A stretch of 64,000 bases of DNA from Clostridia bacterium (GTDB lineage: Bacteria; Bacillota; Clostridia; Oscillospirales; CAG-272): positions 1 to 64,000 of the forward strand of contig JAFUKI010000173.1 of the NCBI GenBank assembly GCA_017467815.1. The letters are read 5' to 3'. Under the pieces are notes generated by a model. The model was not told where the DNA came from, did not search any database, and worked only from the letters and a program-made list of their open reading frames with translations. Shown here one piece after another: positions 49,919 to 51,602 of this stretch; within the stretch, counting starts at the first letter, position 1, and each line of letters begins with the position of its first letter. A program made the position numbers and the translations under genes.

Positions 49919-49981
49919 CGGGGGAAGGAAAACTTTTTGAAAAAAGTGTTCCTTCCCCCGAACCTCTATCTTTTCAAAAAC
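49919..49981 (-). repeat. palindromic repeat family, copy B
   Basis: CGGGGGAAGGAA...TTCCTTCCCCCG hairpin (49919-49960), then CTTTTCAAAAAC, the flank found in copies D, E and F. Minus orientation, just after the YhaN-like gene and before the lysis cassette. Confidence 0.75.
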
Positions 49982-50109
49982 TTTTATGGAAGTTTTTTGT
50001 GACGGGGATATGGTTCGCTTGGGCTTGTTTTGTGGATCCAAGCGTTTTTTTATTTTGGCTTAGAGTTTCTCGTCCGATCTGCACTGTTGCAAATGCCACA
50101 TTCAGCTTA

Positions 50110-50138
50110 TTGACAGAACAAATGTTCTGTTGTATACT
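50110..50138 (+). promoter_or_regulatory. sigma-A promoter of the lysis cassette with embedded operator
   Basis: TTGACA, 17-nt spacer, TATACT. The spacer is almost filled by the palindrome at 50113-50130. Confidence 0.85.
50113..50130 (+). promoter_or_regulatory. LexA-like (SOS) operator
   Basis: ACAGAAC-AAAT-GTTCTGT, perfect 7-bp arms, fits GAAC-N4-GTTC of Gram-positive LexA boxes and lies between -35 and -10, the classic position for repression. Confidence 0.7.
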
Positions 50139-50171
50139 ATATGTACGAAAGCCTTATGAAAGGAGAAAACT

Positions 50172-50390
50172 ATGGCATACATAACCGAGATTGTCATTGC
50201 ACTGATCGCTTTGCTTGGGTCTGCGATCGGGTCCTACAGCGGATTCCGCCTGACTGCCTATCGGGTGGAGCAGCTGGAGGTCAAGGTGGACAAGCACAAT
50301 AACTTTGCCACAAGAATTCCGTTACTGGAAGAAAAGTGCAGGCATATACTGGAACGTATCGAGAAGATCGAACAGACAAAAGACGAATAA
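50172..50390 (+). CDS. phage XhlA-like/holin-associated small membrane protein
   Basis: 72 residues: an N-terminal membrane helix (about 5-25, IVIALIALLGSAIGSYSGF) and a C-terminal coiled coil (YRVEQLEVKVDKHNNFATRIPLLEEK in outline). The VEQLE-KVDKHNNF-RIP pattern is common in small proteins encoded beside holin and endolysin genes of Clostridial phages. It would help membrane opening or endolysin release. AAAGGAG precedes the ATG. First gene of a three-gene lysis cassette. Confidence 0.8.
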   Translation: MAYITEIVIALIALLGSAIGSYSGFRLTAYRVEQLEVKVDKHNNFATRIPLLEEKCRHILERIEKIEQTKDE

Positions 50391-50435
50391 GAAAAACTTT
50401 GTACGGATGTACAACAGCAAAGAGAGGAGAAATCT

Positions 50436-50993
50436 ATGCTTCCTTATAAAAATGGAACCGTTCGGGTCACCAGCACTTACGGAAACCGTATCCGGAACGG
50501 AAAAACAGAATTTCACAAAGGGATCGACTTAGTGGGAAGTCAGAAACAGATCGCTGCCATTGCGGACGGTGTTGTTGCCGCATCAGCGATTCTGGACAAA
50601 GCATCGGACACCAGCCGCACGTGGGAATGGGGGAATTATATCCGCATCGACACTGCTGACGGGCACAGGATGTTTTACTGCCATCTTTCCGCACGTTATG
50701 TACAGAAGGGTGCGGTGGTTCATGCCGGGGATGTGATTGGATTGGAAGGCAGTACGGGACTCAGCACCGGCAGTCATCTGCATTTTGAAGTGCGGAATTC
50801 CCTGGGGCAGAGTCTGGATCCCACAGCCTTTCTGGGGATCGACAACCGTCTGCAGTCCGTCGACGCCGCATCATCCTATTACGGGAAACTGGTCTGTGAT
50901 CGCTGTGGGCTGGAAGAAGCCACGCGCCGGTATCTGGACCAGTACAAATACGCTCCCGATCTGTGGCGCAAGCTATGGAACGCCATGCAGTGA
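50436..50993 (+). CDS. M23-family endolysin (peptidoglycan endopeptidase)
   Basis: 185-residue LytM-type zinc peptidase. Zinc and catalytic residues: His27 and Asp31 in FHKGIDL, His83 in YCHLS, and His114/His116 in GSHLHFEV. The opening TSTYGNRI is also typical. No signal peptide, as expected for a phage lysin released by a holin. The last about 45 residues are a separate tail with CDRCG and a YLDQYKYAPDLWRKLW helix, perhaps a wall-binding or regulatory module I do not recognise. AGAGGAG lies before the ATG, and it sits 45 nt after the XhlA-like gene. Confidence 0.92.
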   Translation: MLPYKNGTVRVTSTYGNRIRNGKTEFHKGIDLVGSQKQIAAIADGVVAASAILDKASDTSRTWEWGNYIRIDTADGHRMFYCHLSARYVQKGAVVHAGDVIGLEGSTGLSTGSHLHFEVRNSLGQSLDPTAFLGIDNRLQSVDAASSYYGKLVCDRCGLEEATRRYLDQYKYAPDLWRKLWNAMQ

Positions 50994-51002
50994 GGGATGG
51001 GC

Positions 51003-51296
51003 ATGAAAAATTCTGATGGCAGCAAGCAGATGCAATACAGCAAAAAAATTCTGACCGCCATGATCCGGCTATGGTTTGCAGGGGCGGTATTTGGAATGAT
51101 TTTTGTTTCGGTACAGCTGTGTATCCTGCTTCTTGTGCCGGAAATTACGCTGAACATGCCCCTTTCCCTGGATGCAATTCTGAACTATATCGGCATCCCC
51201 ATGACCGGCGGTACGGTCGGCTATCTGCTGAAATCTGCCATTGAGAACAAAGAAAAGATTCAGCACGGTACTTCTGATGAGGATCATCCCCTGTAA
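51003..51296 (+). CDS. probable holin
   Basis: About 97 residues from the ATG at 51003 (a GTG-less alternative ATG lies at 50997). Two membrane helices (about 18-45, LWFAGAVFGMIFVSVQLCILL, and 60-80, LNYIGIPMTGGTVGYLLKSAI) with a charged C-terminal tail, the class II holin layout. GGGATG precedes the start. Immediately follows the endolysin gene. Its family is not certain; position and topology support holin. Confidence 0.65.
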   Translation: MKNSDGSKQMQYSKKILTAMIRLWFAGAVFGMIFVSVQLCILLLVPEITLNMPLSLDAILNYIGIPMTGGTVGYLLKSAIENKEKIQHGTSDEDHPL

Positions 51297-51327
51297 TCTT
51301 AAGAAAGAGACTGTTTCATTTACGCAG

Positions 51328-51421
51328 AGGAGGGAGAAAAACTTTTTGCCAAAAAGTCTTTCTCCCTCCTGAAGATTTACAAAGCAATTCTTCGGCACCC
51401 CCTCCCTCTTTTCAAAAAAAC
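51328..51421 (-). repeat. palindromic repeat family, copy D
   Basis: AGGAGGGAGAAA...TTTCTCCCTCCT hairpin (51328-51370) followed by GAAGATTTACAAAGCAATTC, the reverse complement of copy A's flank, then CCTCCCTCTTTTCAAAAAAAC as in copies B and F. Faces copy E. Confidence 0.8.
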
Positions 51422-51508: not shown

Positions 51509-51570
51509 GTTTTTGAAAAGTAAGGGGCTTGGGGGAAGGAAAGCTTTTTTCAAAAAGTTTTCCTTCCCCC
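51509..51570 (+). repeat. palindromic repeat family, copy E
   Basis: GTTTTTGAAAAG flank then GGGGGAAGGAAA...TTTTCCTTCCCCC hairpin (51531-51570). Together with copy D it fills most of the 307-nt gap after the lysis cassette. Confidence 0.8.
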
Positions 51571-51602
51571 AAAAATTTTACTTGCCATAACCGCTTTTCT
51601 AC

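Follow-up and report, generated by a model that had tools for sequence, protein, structure and literature searches.

Phage-derived lysis genes that bacteria have domesticated are already known from PBSX, pyocins, and type 10 secretion systems (T10SSs). In Bacillus subtilis, the PBSX lysis genes lead to the release of membrane vesicles on DNA damage (PMC5589764). In Pseudomonas aeruginosa, the pyocin Hol/Lys proteins bring about explosive cell lysis, by which vesicles and DNA are released after damage, independently of particles (PMC4834629). SOS-triggered lysis and vesicle release are usually credited to resident prophages or tailocins. In the open-access literature, we found no stand-alone, directly LexA-boxed lysis cassette in Clostridia; word searches returned no holin in a paper on the C. 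difficile LexA regulon and no lysis or holin term in one on the gut SOS meta-regulon.

Here we describe a three-gene locus in a window of 64,000 nucleotides from a Clostridia bacterium (contig JAFUKI010000173.1 of assembly GCA_017467815.1). Like xhlA-xhlB-xlyA of PBSX, it combines a small membrane protein with lysis genes and is phage-derived, damage-dependent expression being measured for PBSX (PMC5589764) and predicted here. The PBSX genes, however, are part of a defective prophage that includes structural genes, and are driven by its late promoter, whereas the present cassette lies outside any prophage, encodes an M23 peptidase, and has a LexA-type box directly in its promoter. It resembles pyocin Hol/Lys as an endolysin with a holin (putative here) under SOS regulation (predicted here), with a lytic role that in the pyocin case is separable from particles (PMC4834629); Hol/Lys lies inside the R/F-pyocin cluster of a Gram-negative bacterium, whereas the cassette stands alone. 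With the T10SSs of Yersinia, Serratia, and Salmonella, it shares the domestication of a phage lysis cassette by its host (PMC10101115, PMC10847048), but T10SSs are tied to a released cargo and to other regulators, and this cassette has no cargo candidate. In Enterococcus phage phiEf11 and Streptococcus phage CHPC1109, a homolog of its first protein (72 aa) is encoded directly upstream of holin and endolysin, although these are complete phages with other endolysin types and gene order. The nearest relatives are cassettes beside tRNA-Leu/tRNA-Gly, one on another contig of the same genome (C61) and two in genomes G199 and G210, with endolysins of a sister clade and, in C61 and G199, a LexA-type spacer box. 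They differ from the cassette described here in having fibre-like genes and a canonical holin, to which C61 and G199 add a gene for a small regulator. We consider it probable (about 0.7) that our cassette is a domesticated lysis unit that LexA would repress and DNA damage would release.

Results

Positions 50110–51296 of the window form a promoter and three-gene operon with good Shine-Dalgarno sites at all three ORFs. The features, with an element just upstream, are:

50085..50100, + strand: upstream element TGTTGCAAATGCCACA, an imperfect inverted repeat with a 4-nt spacer, ∼50 bp 5′ of the likely start of transcription
50110..50138, + strand: near-consensus sigma-A promoter TTGACA-N17-TATACT (11/12 consensus positions)
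50113..50130, + strand: predicted LexA-type operator ACAGAACAAATGTTCTGT, a perfect palindrome ACAGAAC-AAAT-GTTCTGT filling the promoter spacer
50172..50390, + strand: 72-aa membrane/coiled-coil protein with an N-terminal transmembrane (TM) segment (1–19) and a coiled-coil-like charged tail; predicted phage lysis-module accessory protein
50436..50993, + strand: M23 metallo-endopeptidase endolysin, 185 aa (Pfam Peptidase_M23, E=2.5e-22)
51003..51296, + strand: holin-like membrane protein, 97 aa (99 aa from an alternative start at 50997)

The 72-aa protein matches PHROG 1863 (E=1.9e-8), a family of unknown function. It has no match to any Pfam family, XhlA (PF10779) included, and a homolog from a third species scored E=0.6 against XhlA, below the cut-off. 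The sequence-only reading had described an XhlA-like protein, an M23 endolysin, and a holin-like protein as one unit. The three ORFs and the M23 assignment hold up; "XhlA-like" fits the layout and position and does not denote a proven family membership. The analogy drawn with PBSX is likewise one of design, no homology to xhlA having been shown.

The endolysin also matches PHROG endolysin families and keeps the metal-binding pattern of its class, HxxxD (H27/D31) and HxH (H114/H116). Neither a signal peptide nor a TM segment was detected in it, so that it combines the lack of a signal with an intact catalytic motif, as in a lysis module. At its C terminus (50890–50990) is an unnamed wall-binding-like repeat of ∼35 aa (DRCGLEEATRRYLDQYKYAPDLWRKLW) that is doubled in some relatives (L004, L005, L007). 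The 97-aa protein has a TM segment at residues 27–45 and a weaker second hydrophobic stretch, and its counterparts in other cassettes have one or two TMs. It gave no significant family match, holin families included, and its AlphaFold model, all-helical at pLDDT 65, is of low confidence and uninformative. The canonical holin of the tRNA-type relatives is missing here, and from its membrane character we take the 97-aa protein to be a putative holin.

The palindrome reported for the promoter spacer is present and perfect. Its rarity was dropped as evidence for a LexA site, since the window holds four perfect 7+4+7 palindromes against about 3.9 expected (64000/4^7) and GAACANNTGTTY occurs at 7 places genome-wide against 5 for the reversed control, both at chance level. 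What lifts the box above chance is that it sits in the spacer, matches the lexA operator, and is conserved in a sister species. A GAAC-N4-GTTC core lies inside the spacer in 1 of the 15 promoter-like sites of the window; this core is the Bacillus LexA operator, a motif applied to clostridia too (PMC4234289).

The SOS context of the genome supports the LexA-like promoter proposed earlier. One clear LexA is encoded and predicted to be cleavable: its cleavage site has the Ala-Gly context, and the S24 peptidase Ser and Lys motifs are intact. The cassette box shares its core with the lexA operator of the same genome (AGAACAAGTGTTTAC), and (A/C)GAACAAGTGTTTAC precedes lexA, just upstream of the −10, in seven of the eight genus genomes examined (the exception is G201). 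Set against each other, the spacer box (GAACAAATGTTC) and the lexA operator (GAACAAGTGTTT) place the genus-specific operator type in the cassette promoter, as in a member of the SOS regulon. A Y-family (pol IV-type) polymerase gene has a promoter of the same design, TTGACA..TATAAT with GAACANNTGTTY in the spacer, and recA has a box, CGAAA-N4-GTTCG, one mismatch from consensus, just downstream of the −10 and conserved in four species. The seven GAACANNTGTTY places include the lexA and pol IV promoters, the cassette, a site upstream of an antitoxin gene, and one prophage region. At the antitoxin site (C91:6607-6618, L188), the LexA-type box lies ∼66 bp upstream of a RelB/DinJ-like gene; in the prophage region (C55:61451-61462, L171), GAACATATGTTC lies near a terminase-like gene, beside a strong promoter.

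Upstream of the promoter, TGTTGCAAATGCCACA is identical in the sister species G197, within a conserved 20-bp block, and the remaining upstream spacer has diverged. Its copies are weakly enriched over control genome-wide; copies with one mismatch occur over a Crp/Fnr-like gene's promoter and also ahead of a gene for anaerobic ribonucleotide reductase. A regulon for this 16-bp element was not accepted, as the case is weak and several copies lie inside genes. It is a possible second regulator site, perhaps of Crp/Fnr type. The cassette is flanked by three long inverted repeats that resemble one another (GGGGGAAGGAAAAC...CCTTCCCCC type; 49920–49965, 51327–51372, and 51529–51572). They are either terminators or a dispersed palindromic repeat, and none was seen in G197, where the spacers are shorter.

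These data bear on the view that the palindrome arose by chance, that the operon is constitutive or otherwise governed, and that the M23 protein is a cell-wall remodelling enzyme. The chance-level counts agree with it, and the second conserved element suggests other control. It leaves the spacer position, the lexA operator match, and the conservation in G197 unaccounted for, and a strong constitutive promoter on a lytic operon would be deleterious. Moreover, the M23 protein clusters with endolysins of phages and lacks a signal peptide. We regard this view as very unlikely.

The neighbours of the cassette are sbcD/sbcC-like genes and a convergent gene for an uncharacterised 775-aa protein. It had been claimed that no integrase, terminase, capsid, or tail gene lies within tens of kilobases, and the gene list of the whole 71-kb contig bears this out; the rest of that contig holds metabolic and housekeeping genes only. 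A comparison of the ten neighbouring genes with PHROGs gave no credible phage structural match; the matches found were a local tail-fibre match in the 775-aa gene (E=4e-6) and weak matches to DtxR-type regulators. The adjacent structural genes of a PBSX-like defective prophage are absent from both the 71-kb contig and the 31-kb contig of G197.

In G197, which belongs to a sister species in the same genus, the same three genes, promoter, and box lie between the sbcC-like and 775-aa genes. These flanks are about 81% identical to those of the window, and the whole 31-kb contig, about 30 kb of housekeeping, non-phage genes, is collinear with it. The promoter region is identical at 26 of 29 positions (TTGACAGAACAGATGTTCCGATGTATACT). 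The same isolated cassette at the same place in a relative is the kind of synteny that the sequence-only reading had asked for. A full prophage at this locus in close relatives, which that reading named as its own refutation, was looked for and not found, and the collinearity of G197 rules against it.

All three cassette genes are under purifying selection. Between the window and G197, dN/dS (Nei-Gojobori) is 0.063 for the 72-aa gene, 0.106 for the M23 gene, and 0.244 for the 97-aa gene, the fastest-evolving of the three; the flanking sbcD, sbcC, and 775-aa genes gave 0.167, 0.135, and 0.127. The near-saturating dS of about 0.6–1.1 would have left ample time for decay, a mark of selection and not of recent arrival. 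Collinearity and purifying selection together support the earlier idea of a domesticated cassette without a prophage. The sbcC locus as its ancestral site was rejected: G210, G205, G199, and G198 have sbcD/sbcC without the cassette, and the insertion there, therefore, looks specific to the lineage of this genome and G197.

The same evidence weighs on a passive remnant: a prophage would have lost everything but its right end, which is kept by chance while it decays. All cassette parts have phage homologs in similar order, prophage ends commonly hold lysis genes, and related cassettes adjoin tRNA genes, which are typical integration sites. Against this, the genes are intact in two species at the dS and dN/dS given above, the promoter is conserved while the spacer diverged, and no other phage gene was seen nearby. 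The remnant reading is, therefore, disfavoured, and we give it little weight. An SOS-gated, T10SS-like pair of holin and peptidoglycan hydrolase, exporting a specific protein instead of killing the cell, is also improbable. In its favour, T10SSs are lysis cassettes of phage origin that now serve in release (PMC10101115, PMC10847048), and a small membrane protein with a signal-less hydrolase is the layout seen here. However, no candidate cargo gene is cotranscribed with or adjacent to the cassette, between its sbcD/sbcC-like and uncharacterised neighbours, and the regulation is of the SOS type, not that of a cargo gene.

A third species (G205, goat caecum MAG RGIG1810) carries an isolated three-gene cassette beside tRNA-Leu, between rubrerythrin-like and phosphatase-like genes. 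Its box, AAACGGATGTTT, lies 5′ of TATACT and is related, weaker, and a poorer match (AAAC-N4-GTTT). In a profile search across the genus, the 72-aa type turned up in the present genome (G000), G197, and G205 and nowhere else, apart from one distant match in G185. In a maximum-likelihood tree, the endolysins of the window, G197, and G205 form one clade (98/88), and those of the three tRNA-Leu/tRNA-Gly cassettes form its sister (100/97); both clades lie within a wider set of phage and prophage enzymes. Besides the lysis position of the real phages named above, homologs of the 72-aa protein occur in prophage-like regions of the family. By homology and tree position, the cassette genes descend from phage lysis modules. 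The best endolysin relatives in viral contigs (IMG/VR) have 55% identity or less. A search for close relatives in annotated phages got no further than Listeria tape-measure proteins, at about 34% identity.

The tRNA-type cassettes of C61 and G199 open with TTGACGAACG(T/A)ATGTTTG...TATAAT, a LexA-type box in a promoter spacer, followed by a small regulator, fibre-like genes, a membrane protein, M23, and a holin. The one on C61 (L113, 6144-9860), next to tRNA-Leu and tRNA-Gly, is the second LexA-type boxed lysis cassette of the genome. The G199 cassette is flanked on both sides by chromosomal genes. The one on C61 may belong to a prophage, since phage-like genes are found across the tRNAs and the contig stops close to the promoter. 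We found no LexA-type box upstream of the fibre-type cassettes of G202, G201, and G208.

This second boxed cassette, together with phage DNA in the same genome (C61 and the C55 terminase region with its GAACATATGTTC box), would suit a helper lysis unit that frees another SOS-induced prophage, satellite, or bacteriocin. Phages usually bring their own lysis genes, however, and the cassette is collinear with that of G197 whatever elements are present, those of G197 having been surveyed without detail. We think such a helper role unlikely.

Discussion

Our preferred reading is that a phage lysis module of accessory membrane protein, M23 endolysin, and holin became part of the chromosome in a gut Clostridia genus and came under the direct control of the host's LexA. 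As long as the cell is undamaged, this repressor would sit on the promoter-spacer box and block RNA polymerase. On DNA damage, active RecA would trigger self-cleavage of LexA and the strong promoter would fire. The two small membrane proteins might then permeabilise or depolarise the membrane, the signal-less endolysin would reach and cut peptidoglycan, and the cell would lyse or bleed vesicles, DNA, and cytoplasm. We infer LexA binding, damage induction, holin function, and lysis; for the population, the unit may serve vesicle formation, DNA release, abortive/altruistic death, or the export of a cargo. A lytic unit is costly; its benefit would, therefore, have to be at the population level, or the unit may act sublethally.

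A wider proposal is more tentative, and we put it at somewhat below even odds: that the genus repeatedly keeps virion-free, LexA-repressed lysis cassettes, in at least two lineages and at three loci, with two cassettes in this genome. They would serve the host as its own SOS programme for suicide or vesicle release, and a second regulator, binding at TGTTGCAAATGCCACA, might gate it too.

The locus suggests that a phage self-destruct unit has become a bacterial property in two sister species of gut Clostridia. If this is true, bacteria can dispense with the particle and still hold on to the lytic arm, as a lysis-only cassette under host LexA that is conserved between species. DNA-damaging drugs and diet compounds would then be linked to the release of DNA, vesicles, and antigens by gut commensals, and the cassette would offer a small, clean system in which to ask whether such lysis is altruistic, defensive, or secretory.
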